From positions 1 to 45,012 of the forward strand of contig CANSGN010000014.1 of NCBI GenBank assembly GCA_947646415.1: DNA of 45,012 bases, given 5' to 3'. This document shows positions 1,960 to 38,712 of the stretch, one piece after another; the stretch's first letter is position 1, and each line of letters begins with the position of its first letter. This stretch comes from an uncultured Clostridia bacterium. GTDB taxonomy: Bacteria > Bacillota > Clostridia > Christensenellales > UBA3700. The notes beneath the pieces were generated by a model. It ran no database searches. It worked only from the letters and a program-made list of their open reading frames with translations, and was not told where the DNA came from. Made by a program: the position numbers and the translations under genes.

Positions 1960-2108
1960 GTACATAGAATATATATAATCTATGTACATTTTTCGTATTT
2001 TTTTATATTAAAGTTTTTACAAAATATTTAGTTTAATATTGACATTACTTTATATTTAATCTTATAATATAATTGATTAAGTACATAGATTATATATATT
2101 CTATGTAC
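1960..2108 (+). promoter_or_regulatory. Invertible promoter segment 1 (inverton), ON orientation
   Basis: Two 28-bp sequences (1960-1987 and 2081-2108) are perfect reverse complements and flank 93 bp. Each repeat is itself a partial palindrome, GTACATAGA - 10 nt - TCTATGTAC, the form of a tyrosine-recombinase crossover site with two binding arms and an asymmetric centre. Between them lies a consensus sigma-A promoter, TTGACA at 2039-2044, 18-nt spacer, TATAAT at 2063-2068, pointing to the surface-protein gene at 2154. Repeat identity stops exactly at the 28-bp boundaries. Inversion would turn the promoter away from the gene. Inversion itself is inferred. Confidence 0.85.
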
Positions 2109-2153: not shown

Positions 2154-5100
2154 ATGCACATGACTCGGAAAAAATCTTATTTGCTTATAGCAATAATTGT
2201 AATGTTAATTGTAGTAATTTCTTGCGGAGTTGCGTCAACTTTTCTTGCACCTAACGAAGTTTTGGCTTTGACAAATACAGATTCTGCAACTAAGGTTGCA
2301 GGTGGTGTAGATATATATGATTCTTCTTCGCAATCTTTTAATAGTTTTGCTATTTATGATTTAAAAAAGAAATTGTTTAATGGCAAAGACCCGTTTAGTT
2401 ATATAAAATCAAGCATAGATACCCAAACTAATGCTTATGTAGTTCCTGCGTCAACAATTAACTCTAATGTGGGAAATGCTACAGGAGGATTGGTATTAAA
2501 TTTTGGCGGATATACATGGATAGTATCTTGCTTAACATTGACTGACACCACCAATTTTGGCAAGGAAGACATTGTTGTAACATTGTATATGGCAGATAAT
2601 TCCAATGTCGGCAGTGTTTATAACTCTAATAGTTCCGCGGTAAAAGGCAATAACGCTTATAGTGCAAGTGAATTAAGACAAAATCTTTTATCCAATTCCG
2701 CTTTTGCACAGTTTTCGGGTGGAAGCTTTGCCACAAAATATTTAGTCCAACCATCTAAAATAAAATATCAATATACTCAGTCTTGGTCAAGATTCGGTAC
2801 TGCTAATTTTTACAATCTTCCAAATGATGCTTTACATAATTTAACAACAGGTTGGAATAGTTCGCCTTTATATGTGCCGGAGGACATTTTACAAGCCCCA
2901 AACGGAGATAACGTTAGATATGACGCATGGGGCAATGATTATATTTGGATTCCTAGTATAACTGAGATTGGTGGTAGCTTTTCGTCGACTGCTTTAAATG
3001 GTTCAATTTGGAGTTTATCACAAAATCAACTAACTTCAAATTCCAATGTTTGGTTACGTTCCGGTAATAGTTATGGCGAAGCCTTAATTCAAGGTAGCAA
3101 TGGCATAAGCAGTGCATTAACTGTTAGTAGCAGCAATTATATAAGACCTGCAATACATATAAATTTAAGCGAAATATTAAGCGGTTTGGAAAATGGAGTG
3201 CAAAATCCTCAAGATTTGCAGACAACATACAACGAAACAGCTCAAACATTAAGTGAAATTGTAAAGTCAAACAAAAACACTGCTTGGTATGACAAAAATC
3301 TTTATGAAACAGATAATGAGTTTATAAAGCTTACTTATCCCGACAGTACTAAAGCATTTGAAAACGCAGGAGAGTATTGGGTAAAAGTAGAGATAAAAGA
3401 GAGTTGGACAAACAAAATAATTGCACTAGTAGAACAAGATGCCGCAAAATATAATTGGACGGAAGCCGAAAAGCAGCAAGTAATAGATTTTAGAAAACCT
3501 AAGTTTTTGGGAACTGCGGATATAAGCGACCCAAATCATACCGAGACAGATACTGAACGTTGGATAAAAATAACTGTAAAAAAGGCGGATATAGATTTTA
3601 GCAATGTCAAGTGGAGTGCGGACAGTTTGGAATACAATGTCACAAAACAGTCCGTAAGCATTGTATCGGGCTTGCCATCATTTTTAAAACCATTATACAT
3701 AGGCGAAACTGAAAAAGACGTGAATATCGGTAATACATTTTACACTGCAAAAGTAATTGGCTTTGAAAGCACAAACAGCAACTACAACATACCTAATACA
3801 ACAGCGGAATTGGAAAGTATACCGCAGTTACAACTTAAATGGAGAATAACAAAAAAGAAGATAAATGTAAGTTGGAAAACGGAAGAAAAGGTAATAAACG
3901 GAATAAACTTAAAGATACCTGTACTAGTAGTGGATAGTAGTTATGAAAGTGCAATAGAGTATAAGTATTACACTGATGCAAATTGCAATACATCTATTAC
4001 GCTAGAAAAAATAGCCGAAGAATATAGTGCAACCCAATCAAAACCATATTGGGTAAAGGCAAGCTTAAAGACAGAAGGGGACTATAACAACACTAATAGT
4101 ATACTTTTGCTAGATGGTAGCGAAGTTATAGAAACAATTTCGTCGTTTAAAGTAGGAGAGGAAAATAACGGAGTAACAGTAAGCCTTGAAACAAGTAAAG
4201 TAACATATAACGGTAGCGAGCAAAGGGCAGTATTCCAAGTAAGTGGCGGACTTAATGCGGATGCTTTGTTGGTAACATATAAAAAGGAAAATGGTGTAGA
4301 AATACCATATATACCAACCGAGGCAGGAAGATACAAGGTAACAGTAAACCTAAAAGATGGCTTGGGTAACTTTGTAATAGTAGGACAAAAAGAGTTTGAC
4401 TATGAGATAGAAAGTTTAAAGATAACAAAACCACAAGCAAATCAAGCAAAAGTATTTAAGGCAAGCGGATTTGAGTTTAGGGATATAACCAACTTACCAA
4501 AAGAATGGGCAAAGTACTTTGATATAAAAGTATTTGATAAAGATAATAACGAGATAGGCAAAGTAAACGGAAGTTGGACATTTGTAGGCGTAAATAAGTA
4601 CCGAATCCAAATACAGTATAAAAACGGAATGAACACCAATAACGGTGGAGAAGTAGACAATGTAGTATGGCAGGACGGAAGTAAAGGGAATTGCCAAGTA
4701 AGCCTTGATATCGAAAAACTAGTGTTGACCATAAACGGATGGCAGGACGGAGAGGAAAACGGAAGAGCAACACTAAAGTCAGACTATACGCAAGAGATAG
4801 AAAAGTATTTTGACTATGTAATAAACGAGTGCAGCGGGGATGAAACAGTAGGCGAGGAGCTTGTAGGAAATGCAACCTTAAAGTACTCAACAAATTACCA
4901 AATAGCGTTAAGGATAAAGAACGAATATAAGGGAAATGTAGTAGTAGAGTATAATGGTCAAAATGTAGAGGAAACAGAGCCATACAAATTTAAAACAAAG
5001 GCAAATCCATTTACAGACGGGAATGGCAGTGACGATGACAACAACGGCACAAGCGGTAAACCGAATGGTGGTAGTAACGGAATGGATGACTTTGTTGAAA

Positions 5101-5597
5101 CAATAAAAAAATTACCTTATTATGTATGGATATTGGTAGGAATAATTTTATTTTTAATCATACTTATAATTGTAATTTTGATATTAAAACGCAATAAAAA
5201 CAAAGGCGCTCCAAAGCAAGCAATGACATACGGAAATTACCCAACAGCTAGCAATGAACAACAACCTGCAAAGGATAACGTAGTAATAAGTAGCGAAACC
5301 TCAAATGACAGTTTCCGCAATGTAAGAGGAACGATTGTCAATAACTACAAAGTAGGATATAAGGATTGGACGTTTGTAATGAAAGAGACTGATATACTTA
5401 ATTTGGATGTATTGGAATCTCCTCAAGATGAAGTAATGTTTTACGCTTTTAAGAAAAACGATTTGAGGAAAGTTAAAAAATTACAAAGTCAAATTGACCA
5501 ATCCGAAAGTAATGTAAAAGCTAATAATTCAAACGATACTTCAACGGCAGAAACACAATTAAATAGCAAAAAGCAAAAAGGTAAAAAGCGTTACTAA
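2154..5597 (+). CDS. Large membrane-anchored surface protein, CLec/DUF6273-like domain
   Basis: Secreted, membrane-anchored protein of 1147 aa. Residues 1-40 are a signal peptide. Residues ~55-341 are homologous to the DGR target protein at 26478, sharing the AGG..DIY/ELW opening, the VGNA segment, WGNDYIWIPS and the WLRSG...RPAIHINLS block (Trp300-Ser341), which resembles the C-type-lectin/DUF6273 fold. The rest to ~970 is beta-rich, Ig-like repeat material (for example VTYNGSEQRAVF). Residues 987-1011 form a transmembrane helix followed by a ~135-residue lysine-rich cytoplasmic tail. AGGAG at 2140-2144 supports the start. Its WLRSG block differs from the DGR template at many non-adenine bases, so it is not a current retrohoming target. 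Transcription depends on the invertible promoter; I see no other promoter between segment and gene. Ligand unknown. Confidence 0.85.
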   Translation: MHMTRKKSYLLIAIIVMLIVVISCGVASTFLAPNEVLALTNTDSATKVAGGVDIYDSSSQSFNSFAIYDLKKKLFNGKDPFSYIKSSIDTQTNAYVVPASTINSNVGNATGGLVLNFGGYTWIVSCLTLTDTTNFGKEDIVVTLYMADNSNVGSVYNSNSSAVKGNNAYSASELRQNLLSNSAFAQFSGGSFATKYLVQPSKIKYQYTQSWSRFGTANFYNLPNDALHNLTTGWNSSPLYVPEDILQAPNGDNVRYDAWGNDYIWIPSITEIGGSFSSTALNGSIWSLSQNQLTSNSNVWLRSGNSYGEALIQGSNGISSALTVSSSNYIRPAIHINLSEILSGLENGVQNPQDLQTTYNETAQTLSEIVKSNKNTAWYDKNLYETDNEFIKLTYPDSTKAFENAGEYWVKVEIKESWTNKIIALVEQDAAKYNWTEAEKQQVIDFRKPKFLGTADISDPNHTETDTERWIKITVKKADIDFSNVKWSADSLEYNVTKQSVSIVSGLPSFLKPLYIGETEKDVNIGNTFYTAKVIGFESTNSNYNIPNTTAELESIPQLQLKWRITKKKINVSWKTEEKVINGINLKIPVLVVDSSYESAIEYKYYTDANCNTSITLEKIAEEYSATQSKPYWVKASLKTEGDYNNTNSILLLDGSEVIETISSFKVGEENNGVTVSLETSKVTYNGSEQRAVFQVSGGLNADALLVTYKKENGVEIPYIPTEAGRYKVTVNLKDGLGNFVIVGQKEFDYEIESLKITKPQANQAKVFKASGFEFRDITNLPKEWAKYFDIKVFDKDNNEIGKVNGSWTFVGVNKYRIQIQYKNGMNTNNGGEVDNVVWQDGSKGNCQVSLDIEKLVLTINGWQDGEENGRATLKSDYTQEIEKYFDYVINECSGDETVGEELVGNATLKYSTNYQIALRIKNEYKGNVVVEYNGQNVEETEPYKFKTKANPFTDGNGSDDDNNGTSGKPNGGSNGMDDFVETIKKLPYYVWILVGIILFLIILIIVILILKRNKNKGAPKQAMTYGNYPTASNEQQPAKDNVVISSETSNDSFRNVRGTIVNNYKVGYKDWTFVMKETDILNLDVLESPQDEVMFYAFKKNDLRKVKKLQSQIDQSESNVKANNSNDTSTAETQLNSKKQKGKKRY

Positions 5598-25729: not shown

Positions 25730-26062
25730 AAAGGGCGGCGGTTTTCTCGTTTTTGGACTCGTGGTTGCGTTCCGGCAACAATAACAATTACAACAATGCT
25801 TATGTTCTTGGCTCGTCGGGCGCGTATAACAACAACAATGTATCAAACAACAACGGCGTGCGTCCCGCGCTTCACTCAGCCGCAAATTTGAGCGGTGTTT
25901 CCCGTATCCGTATTTATTGAACAACGATGTACGGACAGATGATTTGAGATGAAGGGACTTTCCGTCCTGCCTTTTGTCAAAAAAGGCGAAACAAATCCGA
26001 CCTTTCCCTAACGGCTTGTCTTTTAGGGCATGAGCTTGAAAAAAGCGGTCGGGTTATTTTTT
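25730..26062 (+). ncRNA. DGR template RNA with structured 3' spacer
   Basis: Predicted transcript carrying the TR and then a non-coding structured region. After the TR come a hairpin GCCTTTT / AAAAGGC (25969-25987) and a composite stem AATCCGACC / GGTCGGGTT (25994-26002 with 26047-26055) that encloses CCCTAA / TTAGGG. A seven-T run follows, giving an intrinsic terminator. In the phage BPP-1 system, RNA downstream of the TR is needed to prime cDNA synthesis; this spacer occupies that position. Ends are inferred from promoter and terminator. Confidence 0.7.
25759..25874 (+). repeat. DGR template repeat (TR)
   Basis: 116 bp aligned without gaps to the variable repeat at 27471-27586. The two differ at ten positions, every one an adenine in the TR; the 84 non-adenine positions are identical. 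Adenines (32 by count) are clustered in 13 AAY codons equivalent, while the first 18, a central 21 and nearly the last 20 bases contain almost none. This is the signature of a template tuned for adenine mutagenesis. Confidence 0.97.
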
Positions 26063-26136
26063 TACAATAATTCAACAAGTTTAGCCGAATTATTTCTTAA
26101 AAACAAAGTAAAATACAAAAATTAAAAATAAAAAAT

Positions 26137-26172
26137 ACACCCCGAAACATTTAGTTTTGGGGTGTTACTTTT
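26137..26172 (+). terminator. Terminator-like hairpin upstream of invertible segment 2
   Basis: A 12-bp stem (one G-T pair) ACACCCCGAAAC / GTTTTGGGGTGT with a 5-nt loop, followed by a modest T stretch. It corresponds in position to the hairpin before invertible segment 1. Confidence 0.7.
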
Positions 26173-26174
26173 GT

Positions 26175-26231
26175 GTAAAGTTTAAAGTGGGCAAAAAGTG
26201 GCGTTCACTGCAATAATCCTATCAAAAATCG
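26175..26231 (+). repeat. Conserved 57-nt block upstream of invertible segment 2
   Basis: Gap-free partner of 1861-1917, placed identically between a terminator hairpin and the invertible segment. The shared core contains TCACTGCAATAATC and AAAATCG. Confidence 0.65.
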
Positions 26232-26273
26232 GGACTATTGGAGTTGAAATTTTGCCTTTAATGTAAAGTTTGG

Positions 26274-26450
26274 GTACATGGAATAAGTATATCTATGTAC
26301 AAAATCACGTTTTTTTTGAGTTTTAATATAAATTTTTTGTACAATTTAAGTAAAGAGTTTACAAAACCTTTTCTATAACGTTGACATTATCTTACATTTT
26401 AGCTTAAAATATATATATTAAAAGTACATAGATATACTTATTCCATGTAC
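26274..26450 (+). promoter_or_regulatory. Invertible promoter segment 2 (inverton) controlling the DGR target, ON orientation
   Basis: Two 27-bp perfect inverted repeats (26274-26300 and 26424-26450) enclose 123 bp. Each has the outer arm GTACATGGA, a 9-nt asymmetric centre and the inner arm TCTATGTAC. TTGACA at 26381-26386, 18 bases and TAAAAT at 26405-26410 point to the target gene. The spacing (promoter -10 ends 13 bp before the right repeat) matches segments 1 and 3. I see no other promoter between the right repeat and the gene. Inversion would silence the gene; inversion itself is inferred. Confidence 0.85.
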
Positions 26451-26477
26451 TTGAAAAAATTAAGATAGGAGAGTATT

Positions 26478-28172
26478 ATGGAAAATTTAAAAAACAAAAT
26501 CAAAAAAAATATTTTTCATAACAAAACGGTACTTGTCAGTATTCTAATAATAGTGCTTACAGGTGCATTGCTTATTTTTTCTTTTAAACCTGTCTTTGCT
26601 CTAGGTAGCAACAATGGTGCCATACAGGCAGGTGGCGGAGCAGAGCTTTGGAATAGTTCAACCAATACTTTTAACCCAAATGTAATTAACGATATCAAAG
26701 CAAAGCTATTTGGTACAACAAATCCTGTAGATTATATTAATAGCAATTACGATGCAAAAGAATTTTCTTTGTCAAAAAGCAAAGTAGTGACTGCTTCAAC
26801 TATTAATACTAAAGTAGGAAACGCTCAAGAGGGTATGGTGGTAACTTTGGGTGGCAAACAATGGATGGTAACCTCGTTGACACTTGCAGATACTCCACGT
26901 GGATTTACCGACGTAATTATGACACTGTATTTAAAGCAAAATGAGGGTACATCAAGATATTTTGGTACTTCGATAGATACAAGCGGTAGCGATGCCAAAA
27001 ATTGGGGCAGAAACATGTATAGTAATAGTACGATACGTAACCATCTTTTGACAGCAGATAATTGGAGTTTGTTCAGTGATGGCTATTTTGCGGAAAATTA
27101 CCTTGTAAAGCCTAAATATATAAATTATCAACAAAACTTGACTAGAGCAGGCAGAGATGATAGCTATGACCTTAAAAACGATGCTTTGGGAACACCTGAG
27201 TCACAACATTGGTATGATGGTTGGAACTATAATTGGCCAAATAATAACAGGGTAGAGGCTAATGGCAAACACAATCCTTATACCGCAGATACGAACATAA
27301 ACGGCCATAGATACAACGATTGGGGTGAGGACTATATATGGTTACCTTCCATGACAGAAACAGGCGCATTGCTTGAGGCTGGCGTTACAACAGGTGGTGC
27401 TAGCTACTTGGATAAGGAATGTGTGTGGAAATTGTCTCAGGCTCAACGTAAGCATTCAGGTGCAACCTGGTCGTGGTTGCGTTCCGGCAACCCTAACAAT
27501 TACTACGCTGCTTATGTTCTTGGCTCGTCGGGCGCGTATACCTACAGCAATGTGTCAAGCAACAACGGCGTGCGTCCCGCGCTTCATCTAAATCTAAGCT
27601 CTGCCGTGCTGGGCACGGCGCAGGGAGTTGCTCCTACCAATGAAAGTGGCTATGATTATCAATGTTTGGATACAAACAATTTAAGACAATACTATACAAC
27701 TTTAAATTATAAACATGGCGAGAGTGACAAAACTGCGGAAAGAAATGTATTGGGTAAAATTGCACCTAATACCAAATTAGCTACCTTTGTAGCTAATCTG
27801 GAAAATCCAAAAAACTTGCTAATGGTATATGATAACAAAGGTGCATTAATATACAATAAAGGGACCGAGGTCAAAACCGATTGCATAATAGGAACGGGAT
27901 ATAAAGTGGAATTGTACGATACAAACGGAAGCACGCTTTTAGATACTGTTTATATATCTGTGCTGGGCGATGTAAACGGAGATGGTAGGATAACAGCAAG
28001 TGACGTAGCTTATTTAAGACAAATAGCAAGCAGTGAATCTTTATACAAAGGATTAACGCTTGAGAAAAAGCTTGCAAGTATGCTTATAAATAAGGGAAGT
28101 GTGACATCTGCGGATGCAGAGATTGTCAGAAATATAATTGATAAAAAACTATGGATTGAGCTATTCTATTAA
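26478..28172 (+). CDS. DGR target: secreted CLec/DUF6273-like variable protein with dockerin-like C-terminus
   Basis: A 564-aa secreted protein. Residues 1-41 are a signal peptide (cleavage probably after VFA). Residues ~50-375 form the domain shared with the 2154 protein and resembling the C-type-lectin fold used by DGR targets; WGEDYIWLPS precedes the variable block. The DGR variable repeat covers codons 332-370. Diversified codons are 339, 343, 344, 355, 356, 357, 359 (silent) and 361, in the loop WLRSGN...RPALHLNL. Residues ~490-555 resemble a dockerin: DVNGDGRITASD (498-509) is a calcium-loop consensus, the second half is weaker. There is no membrane anchor, so it may be held by a cohesin or released. 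AGGAGAG precedes the start. The VR is unusually far (~195 codons) from the C-terminus. Ligand unknown. Confidence 0.92.
   Translation: MENLKNKIKKNIFHNKTVLVSILIIVLTGALLIFSFKPVFALGSNNGAIQAGGGAELWNSSTNTFNPNVINDIKAKLFGTTNPVDYINSNYDAKEFSLSKSKVVTASTINTKVGNAQEGMVVTLGGKQWMVTSLTLADTPRGFTDVIMTLYLKQNEGTSRYFGTSIDTSGSDAKNWGRNMYSNSTIRNHLLTADNWSLFSDGYFAENYLVKPKYINYQQNLTRAGRDDSYDLKNDALGTPESQHWYDGWNYNWPNNNRVEANGKHNPYTADTNINGHRYNDWGEDYIWLPSMTETGALLEAGVTTGGASYLDKECVWKLSQAQRKHSGATWSWLRSGNPNNYYAAYVLGSSGAYTYSNVSSNNGVRPALHLNLSSAVLGTAQGVAPTNESGYDYQCLDTNNLRQYYTTLNYKHGESDKTAERNVLGKIAPNTKLATFVANLENPKNLLMVYDNKGALIYNKGTEVKTDCIIGTGYKVELYDTNGSTLLDTVYISVLGDVNGDGRITASDVAYLRQIASSESLYKGLTLEKKLASMLINKGSVTSADAEIVRNIIDKKLWIELFY
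27471..27586 (+). repeat. DGR variable repeat (VR)
   Basis: The counterpart of the TR inside the target gene, in frame with codon 332. Substitutions relative to TR are A to C (4), A to T (2) and A to G (4). It ends in an adenine-free, GC-rich block (GGCGTGCGTCCCGCGCTTC) identical to the TR, the expected place of the initiation-of-mutagenic-homing site. Confidence 0.97.
27603..27619 (+). promoter_or_regulatory. Hairpin downstream of the VR, candidate homing element
   Basis: A perfect 7-bp stem GCCGTGC / GCACGGC with a 3-nt loop begins 16 bp after the VR, within coding sequence (the surrounding codons encode AVLGTAQG). Bordetella phage and other DGR targets have a hairpin/cruciform just downstream of the VR that promotes retrohoming; this one has comparable position and size, though the loop is smaller. 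Confidence 0.65.
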
Positions 28173-37589: not shown

Positions 37590-37768
37590 GTACATAGAAT
37601 AAATATAATCTATGTACTTTTTATAAATTAATTATAGCATTAAAAGTAAATTTTTGTCAATATATAAATAGGCAAAAAGTAAAATATAATGCAAATTTTA
37701 TATTTAATTTACAATCGACATACTAAATTAAGCCGTATATGTACATAGATTATATTTATTTCATGTAC
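37590..37768 (+). promoter_or_regulatory. Invertible promoter segment 3 (inverton), OFF orientation
   Basis: Inverted repeats 37590-37617 and 37741-37768 match at 26 of 28 positions and enclose 123 bp. The left repeat differs from that of segment 1 at one base. A perfect consensus promoter lies on the minus strand: TTGACA (37660-37655), 18 bases, TATAAT (37636-37631), ending 13 bp from the left repeat and pointing away from the gene at 37846. Inversion would place it 13 bp from the right repeat and facing the gene, as in segments 1 and 2. No equally good plus-strand promoter exists within the segment. Confidence 0.82.
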
Positions 37769-37845: not shown

Positions 37846-38712
37846 ATGAAAAAATTTTCGATAGTTGTGCTTGTGCTGTTAATGCTGTTGACACTGACAG
37901 CTTGTGGCAAAAAAATTACGCCTAATGAGCCTTACGATATGAGTGACGGAATAGTATTGGGGGAGTATAAGGAAATGGAATTTACTGTTTGTACTTACAA
38001 CATAAAAGGCGGTGCTGCCACTTTTGAATCGGTAACCAAAATTAAAGATAATATTCAAAGTGTAGGTGCAGATATTGCGGGGCTTCAAGAAGTTGACCAT
38101 TTGTCAAACAGGACAGGCAAACAAGATTTTTTAAGCATTTTTAAAAACAGTTCAAACTTAAATAAGGTTGCTTATTTCCCTTTGCATTTACAAGGTTTTG
38201 GGGATAGTTACGGAATTGCTCAAGTCTCTAAAAATAATTTTGATAGAAAACATTCCTTTAAACTTCCATACCCTTATGAATATGAAAAAGCCGATGTGGA
38301 AAAAAGGATAATAATGCGTACATTGATTACGATAAATGGTGTGCAAATAGCCTTTTATAATACGCATTTATCTTACGAAGAGGTTAAACTAGATAACGGA
38401 ATAAGCTTGAGAGAGGCTCAGTTTGACTATATTTTACAGCTTTTAAAAAGCGACCTATGTCCATACAAAATCGTAACAGGCGATTTTAATGTGCTAGGCT
38501 TTGACGAGTTTGCAAAATTATTAGATAACGGATATAGCATAGTGAATAACCAAAATAAAATATATGACAGCTATCGTGGCGATGACTGTAACTTTAAAGC
38601 AATAGATAATATCATATATTCAGATAATCTTGCGCTTATATCAAGCGGTATGAAAGAAGACGACTGTTCCGACCACAACATGCTGTATGCAAAATTTAAA
38701 ACTTTAGAATAA
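37846..38712 (+). CDS. Endonuclease/exonuclease/phosphatase-family lipoprotein
   Basis: A 288-aa surface lipoprotein. The signal peptide ends in the lipobox LTAC (Cys20). The EEP domain shows FTVCTYNIKGG, GLQEVDHL (metal-binding Glu), FYNTHLSYE, VTGDFNVLG (Asp-x-Asn) and CSDHNMLYAKF (catalytic Asp-His). Family members include DNases, sphingomyelinases and phosphatases, so an extracellular DNase or phosphodiesterase role is possible but unproven. Its upstream region carries the third invertible segment. ATGGTGG precedes the start. Confidence 0.87.
   Translation: MKKFSIVVLVLLMLLTLTACGKKITPNEPYDMSDGIVLGEYKEMEFTVCTYNIKGGAATFESVTKIKDNIQSVGADIAGLQEVDHLSNRTGKQDFLSIFKNSSNLNKVAYFPLHLQGFGDSYGIAQVSKNNFDRKHSFKLPYPYEYEKADVEKRIIMRTLITINGVQIAFYNTHLSYEEVKLDNGISLREAQFDYILQLLKSDLCPYKIVTGDFNVLGFDEFAKLLDNGYSIVNNQNKIYDSYRGDDCNFKAIDNIIYSDNLALISSGMKEDDCSDHNMLYAKFKTLE

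Follow-up and report, generated by a model that had tools for sequence, protein, structure and literature searches.

A diversity-generating retroelement with its target gene behind a predicted invertible promoter, one of 37 related switch cassettes in an uncultured Clostridia bacterium

Diversity-generating retroelements (DGRs) have been described in Bordetella phage BPP-1, for a Legionella lipoprotein and for pilin tips of Bacteroides. Like the element presented here, they comprise a reverse transcriptase (RT), an Avd protein, a template repeat (TR) and a variable repeat (VR), and they introduce adenine-specific changes into a surface-type protein. The difference lies in the predicted location of the target's own promoter on an invertible segment, an arrangement that the consulted parts of the accounts of surface-target DGRs do not mention. 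With respect to the switch, the available parts of the accounts of Bacteroides fragilis describe capsule promoters governed by one global invertase, which we take to be Mpi, acting on one site family at many surface loci, and the organization found in our study is alike. Compared with that system, however, the recombinases would here likely be tyrosine recombinases of the Xer type, the cassettes number 31 + 6 and mostly have 123-bp spacers, and the switched genes are mostly dockerin and DUF6273-like genes, one of them being the target of a DGR. Clostridioides difficile is also reported to carry a phase-variable switch in front of a large surface protein gene, cwpV, in a Gram-positive background. 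The recombinase of that switch is presumably RecV, and to our knowledge cwpV is not a DGR target; the switches of this species have few sites, which differ in sequence. In Mycoplasma agalactiae, a Xer-type recombinase (Xer1, as we assume) is reported to vary the Vpma family of surface lipoproteins, and our candidates are of the Xer type as well. Vpma genes share one promoter through rearrangement, whereas here every gene has its own switch.

The original prediction regarded the coupling of a DGR with an inverton on one gene as undescribed, and the literature searched, subscription papers lying mostly outside its reach, yielded no account of a DGR whose target is preceded by an invertible promoter. 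Likewise, no such target occurs in the passages available from PMC12632263, PMC8042965, PMC8008677, PMC12135933, PMC4319957, PMC8987985, PMC12386605 and PMC5883640, and PMC6642488 contains no mention of promoter, inversion, phase, recombinase or transposase. DGRs and invertons are each known kinds of systems, and their union on one gene within a 37-member set is, as far as searched, new.

The window, i.e., the whole stretch of DNA that was analysed, comprises 45,012 nt of contig CANSGN010000014.1 (assembly GCA_947646415.1; UBA3700, Christensenellales) from a bacterium that is likely a gut dweller. The source genome (G000) amounts to 1.73 Mb on 31 contigs and is 96.5% complete. In the labels, G stands for genome, C for contig, L for an analysed locus or gene and P for a database protein. 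Promoters are consensus matches throughout, and ON and OFF states are predictions from promoter direction that apply to the assembly, with one orientation per locus. The features of the window are collected in Table 1; ten tRNA genes in a row were also observed near the contig end (44001-44932). We consider it quite probable that the promoter of an active DGR's target is located on a segment flipped, likely by a Xer-type tyrosine recombinase, and that mutation and expression of this target, a predicted surface protein, are thereby separately controlled.

Table 1. Position, strand and basis of the annotated features in the window.
Feature	Position	Strand	Basis or remark
Class-B inverton, arms 1960-1987 / 2081-2108, gap 93	1960..2108	+	Predicted ON, faces ORF 2154-5597
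DGR reverse transcriptase (RT), 369 aa	24063..25172	+	RVT_1 E 6.7e-16
Avd accessory protein, 164 aa	25175..25669	+	bAvd E 1.2e-8, NCBIfam DivGenRetAVD E 2.8e-10
Template repeat (TR)	25759..25874	+	TR/VR alignment
Terminator-like stem-loop, 12 pairs, upstream of switch	26137..26165	+	Kept in 28 aligned class-A copies
Conserved left flank, common to class-A cassettes	26166..26273	.	Core also in 5/6 class-B cassettes
Left arm, 27 bp	26274..26300	+	Inverted-repeat match, genome-wide arm search
Invertible spacer, 123 bp, predicted ON orientation	26301..26423	.	Comparison with paralogues, promoter direction
Predicted promoter TTGACA-18-TAAAAT	26381..26410	+	Consensus match
Right arm, 27 bp, exact inverse of left arm	26424..26450	-	Inverted-repeat match, genome-wide arm search
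Likely ribosome-binding site AGGAGA	26467..26472	+	Read from sequence
DGR target, 564 aa: hydrophobic N-terminus, DUF6273 head with VR, dockerin tail	26478..28172	+	Domain search
Variable repeat (VR), residues 332-370 of target	27471..27586	+	TR/VR alignment, allele comparison
Class-B inverton, arms 37590-37617 / 37741-37768, gap 123	37590..37768	-	Predicted OFF, promoter away from gene

RT, Avd, TR and VR of the DGR were all found where the original prediction had placed them, with Avd adjoining an RT of the DGR type. Both Avd models match over nearly the full length, with scores below the curated cut-offs. Of the 116 positions of TR and VR, 10 differ, and all ten are TR adenines (p ~8e-7). 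The TR search of the source genome gave this VR as its sole other match and found no further VRs. Comparison of the target with database proteins adds natural alleles to this picture. In P0001, aligned over the full length, 13 of the 39 VR residues are changed vs 3 of 525 elsewhere, and all VR changes fall at TR codons with A at position 1 or 2, while P0002 (90 member sequences) holds 12 changes in the 39 VR residues and 13 in the remaining 525. P0003 fits less well (15/39 in the VR, 11 of these 15 at A codons; 88/525 elsewhere) and is a more distant allele or a paralogue. By the adenine bias between TR and VR, together with the alleles P0001 and P0002, the DGR is live in nature.

The arms in front of the target, described in the original prediction as perfect 27-bp inverted repeats, are complementary at 27/27 positions with 123 nt between them, and the chance expectation for such arm pairs is ~2e-7 in 45 kb. 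They enclose a promoter match that faces the target and lies 67 nt upstream of its ATG. This is the best of seven promoter-like matches in 25860-26520, where shuffled sequences gave a mean of 2.4 (sd 1.8). Two weaker matches on the + strand are located outside the segment, at 26451-26479 (10/12, its -10 overlapping the ATG) and 26188-26217 (9/12), so that calling the enclosed promoter the only visible one was slightly too strong, even though the best match is indeed inside.

This switch belongs to a genome-wide set in which two classes of arms can be distinguished. A search of the source genome with the class-A arm, tolerating up to 3 mismatches, gave 60 occurrences vs none for the reversed control pattern; at up to 6 mismatches, the analysed stretches comprise 61 arms, i.e., 30 pairs and a single arm that has lost its partner to a contig end. 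Start-to-start distance is 150 in all 30 complete pairs. The better promoter match (TTGACA-18-TATAAT or -TAAAAT) faces away from the gene in 29 of the 30, as it also does in the half cassette on contig C23, and class A amounts to 31 cassettes, with 30 predicted OFF and one, the DGR cassette, predicted ON. Behind 28 of the 30 complete class-A cassettes lies an ORF of 513 to 1198 aa; of the other two, one lacks a long ORF and one is cut by a contig end. A Dockerin_1 match (E<=0.001) is present in 23 of the 28 encoded proteins. The class-A units, 177 bp in length, mostly end 20-22 bp before the start codon, with a distance of 27 bp at the DGR target and of 46 and 55 bp in L026. Class B, with 28-bp arms, has six cassettes in the source genome. 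Their promoter is directed toward the gene in two (C1:195189 and window 1960) and away from it in four, and the units end 44-45 bp before the start codon, one of them 77 bp. A lipoprotein-like ORF (37846-38712) is located behind the class-B switch at 37590 in the window.

Altogether, 37 cassettes (31 + 6) were found, three of them predicted ON, and the spacer, where complete, is 123 bp in 36 of the 37. As two of the three ON cassettes are class B, the DGR target is the sole class-A ON gene, not the sole ON gene. Many loci with one site sequence are what characterizes a global switch regulon, which would here have two related classes of sites. The predicted pairing of a DGR and an inverton on one gene is thus supported by the comparison, although as one member of a 37-cassette set and not as a lone case. 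Class-A arms were absent from the 58 other genomes searched (1/59 when the source genome itself is counted) and from viral contigs, and class-B arms from 33 other genomes.

Several further observations concern the build of the cassettes. An orphan class-A switch (L016:7502-7678), with no long ORF directly behind it, is located just past a dockerin gene. A flank core (TGTAAAG ... TGCAATAATC) is common to class A and five of the six class-B cassettes despite their differing spacers and genes, and this core may be accessory recombination DNA or part of an RNA. In 28 class-A cassettes, a conserved box AG...CT (alignment columns 205-219), palindromic in some copies, lies ~40 bp upstream of the terminator-like stem.

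Inversion of the segments can be read from the paralogues. When the DGR cassette was compared with five class-A paralogues taken from the 18 nearest, the left flank reached 91-98% identity over 100 nt. For the spacer, identity was 41-43% in the given orientation and 86-89% after reverse complementing. In the reverse complement comparison with all 29 other complete cassettes, 18 spacers reach 85-89% and nine, representing a second spacer type, 67-70%. The remaining two are the spacers of L026:4212 (63%, reverse complement) and of L026:6300 (52%, compared in the opposite sense), the latter too diverged to tell its orientation, so that its state is taken from the promoter. Class B presents the same pattern: between L131 and L132, identity amounts to 97% over 60 nt upstream and 93% over 117 nt downstream, with the spacers matching at 88% only in reverse. 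Since the left flank matches in one orientation and the spacer in the other, the DGR segment has inverted in evolution; both orientations exist among paralogues rather than at one locus. The interpretation originally proposed, a live DGR with an invertible promoter, gains from this, the spacer being opposite to its paralogues with the orientation of the flank kept, and class B behaving likewise.

Mismatches between the two arms of a cassette, inspected in the 30 complete cassettes, occur at the outer positions 1, 2, 3, 7 and 10, once at 14, and never at 15-27. Such a distribution fits a crossover located centrally within the site. Position 14 is changed from G to A in one arm of L011:6999 and in both arms of L021:4990, which is the pattern to be expected if the centre of the site is exchanged during inversion.

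The target protein itself is related to other switched proteins of this genome. Over residues 19-384, it shows 36% identity to the product of the gene behind the class-B switch at 1960, and over residues 21-377 it shows 42% identity to that of the gene behind the class-A cassette L026:6300. Residues 392-564 match the tail of a class-A dockerin protein at 48% identity. The variable head thus belongs to one switched family and the dockerin tail to another, and it seems that the target entered the switch regulon by domain fusion. The search for a cohesin partner of the dockerins gave no PF00963 match in the source genome at E<=0.001, though a diverged cohesin may be present. Regarding the fold of the target, there was no C-type lectin among the matches listed, and the structural model is of low confidence.

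Other genomes were also searched for DGR targets near invertons. In the order, 36 RT matches are present in 33 of 396 genomes, the source genome included, and 37 other DGR loci were compared, i.e., all 35 further RT loci together with L067 and L068 from named genomes. TR and VR are on one contig in 20 of the 37, and in none of those 20 could an inverton be placed before the target; the repeats of L170, L174, L177 and L182 were inspected and the remaining loci judged by list position, and switches may go unnoticed where a locus is truncated by a contig end. Three inverted repeats were rejected as target switches: that of L177 encloses a small gene, that of L182 sits beyond a serine recombinase, and that of L174 begins inside an ORF. 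Small serine recombinases 48-49% identical to L036 of the source genome are found at L174:6139-6942 (G118) and L182:14033-14647 (G262), a few kb from the RT, in L182 followed by a 20-bp inverted repeat. The closest DGR relative, L067 (RT 79% identical), has no inverton before its target, so the pairing of DGR and switch was not simply inherited with the RT. The pairing held up in one of the 37 loci, L170 of genome G168.

G168 belongs to the same order but to another family, and its RT is 64% identical. On its DGR contig (L170), a 27-bp arm-like site starts at contig base 51, ~930 bp past the TR; the scan of the other 36 DGR loci found no arm-like site. The VR is located on contig C31 (L216), where 14/14 core differences between TR and VR are at adenines, in a target protein of 2529 aa (DUF6273 23.4 bits vs a cut-off of 23.5). 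An arm lies 472 nt upstream of the first ATG of this ORF, and a TTGACA promoter faces the target. The target contig stops 92 bp into the spacer and the DGR contig 50 bp into it, adding up to 142 bp, the same length as two other G168 spacers; the two half switches, although on separate contigs, are likely one switch. Related arms are present on 11 of 40 further G168 contigs, including five pairs with spacers of 141-153 bp and TTGACA promoters. Including L170, the 41 G168 contigs analysed carry 17 arms at up to 4 mismatches, distributed over 12 of these contigs, with 0 for the reversed control. Where a gene can be assigned, the switches of G168 face both ways, toward the gene in L230, L234 and L216 and away from it in L220, L205 and L206. 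A gene for a XerC-like protein, 64% identical to L038 and 65% to L037 of the source genome, is located ~1.5 kb past the target on the same contig. It is therefore likely, as far as can be read from these contigs, that the pairing of a DGR target with a switch recurs in a bacterium of another family.

Among the 3 Resolvase and 8 Phage_integrase matches of the source genome, L037 (C2:172536-173414) and L038 (C21:19429-20310) are XerC-like and 73% identical to each other. Their best models are those of the XerC, XerD and Xer subfamily, all below cut-offs. Both genes are uninterrupted, and the aligned residues R, K, H, R, H and Y, which we take to be the catalytic ones of XerC-like proteins, are conserved in them. 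A XerC-like protein at E<=1e-40 is encoded in 3 of 35 genomes, i.e., the source genome with two copies, G008 (62%) and G041 (34%), and two genomes of the same genus, one of them 73% complete, have neither such a match nor the arms. In G008, no arm-like site was found in 413,616 bases sampled of ~1.7 Mb, although the XerC-like gene is present; arm-like dyads were also absent from 400 kb sampled of G002, and exact inverted repeats of at least 14 bp in these samples (14-18 bp; two in G008, one in G002) bear no resemblance to the arms. The class-A arm can be divided as 11 + 5 + 11 and the class-B arm as 11 + 6 + 11, presumably the form of dif-type Xer sites. By co-occurrence, L037 and L038 are assigned as candidate recombinases of the arms, and the presence of two XerC-like enzymes alongside arms of two classes (27 and 28 bp) suggests one enzyme per class. 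A third protein, L039, is XerS-like, below the model cut-off, and is likelier the housekeeping enzyme. The XerC-like genes L037, L038, L075 (G008) and L216 (G168) all start ~90-140 bp from a contig end, as if the sequence upstream of them were repeated or rearranging.

Flipping by another enzyme appears unlikely, the candidates being the small serine recombinase L036 on contig C4 and the integrase pair L040/L041. All three are present in the source genome, L036 has a weak match to the Mpi family (51.7 bits vs a cut-off of 272), and L041 sits 2 kb from a cassette. However, relatives of the integrase pair occur in 12 of 35 genomes and relatives of L036 in 6 of 35, vs 1 of 59 for the arms; the arms, with 11 + 5 or 6 + 11 bases, presumably have the dyad of Xer sites, and in G168 it is a XerC-like gene that shares the contig with the DGR target. 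Somewhat less probable still is that the cassettes inverted in the past and are now fixed, the DGR target having locked its promoter in the useful direction. The small number of cassettes in the toward orientation (1 of 31 in class A, 2 of 6 in class B) would agree with this. On the other hand, the arms of the DGR cassette are exact and the inner arm halves are identical in 30/30 cassettes, the arms being kept even though spacers differ by 11-15% from those of the 18 nearest paralogues and by more from those of the other 11, and the intact XerC-like genes with their conserved residues likewise speak against fixation.

The remaining explanations dispense with a switch as the main function. It is highly doubtful that the principal product is a conserved RNA made from the common orientation, with the gene behind being incidental. 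In its favour, 28 copies retain the left flank together with arm and stem at a mean column identity of 86%, and the core of this flank is common to both classes; yet a double change was found in just 1 of 32 predicted pairs, there was no Rfam match in the four sources searched, and a long ORF follows in 28 of the 30 complete class-A cassettes. A trans-acting OFF RNA was rejected as main function: when paired with the ON leaders of six genes, five of class A and the target, the L013 flank RNA gave duplexes not above shuffles, 20-68% of 100 single-base shuffles being equally strong. As for the 177-bp units being MITE-like mobile elements with the inverted repeats as transposon ends, the units are dispersed and repeated and do have terminal inverted repeats, but they mostly end at set distances before start codons, each contains a promoter match, homology extends ~150 bp beyond the left arm and the spacer alone reverses, which makes this origin hardly tenable.

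According to the preferred reading, a promoter flipped by a Xer-type enzyme, the promoter in the ON orientation would read into the target, while in the OFF orientation it would read away from it and halt at the terminator-like stem, which would also shield the target from transcription from the RT and TR side. Since the best promoter of the target is inside the switch and RT, Avd and TR are not, the events that govern rewriting of the VR would differ from those that govern expression of the target, and copying from TR to VR could continue while the target is silent. A new variant would then be displayed only upon the flip back to ON. Independent mutation and switching, and with them silent diversification, we infer from this arrangement. 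A wider model, which we put forward tentatively and hold to be possible, has two layers: Xer-flipped cassettes would choose among ~37 surface proteins and the DGR would rewrite the binding head of a single one, new variants being sheltered by the OFF state, and a module of RT, Avd, TR, switch, target and Xer gene would exist in at least two families.

DGRs give sequence variants and invertons give ON and OFF variants, and here both would act on one gene. The locus makes it testable whether a DGR needs transcription of its target and whether a receptor can diversify while silent, and rewriting and switching of a protein could be studied as a single system. It would also show how a DGR target may be drawn into an existing phase-variable regulon via domain fusion, and may represent a natural design by which a binding protein evolves hidden from selection.
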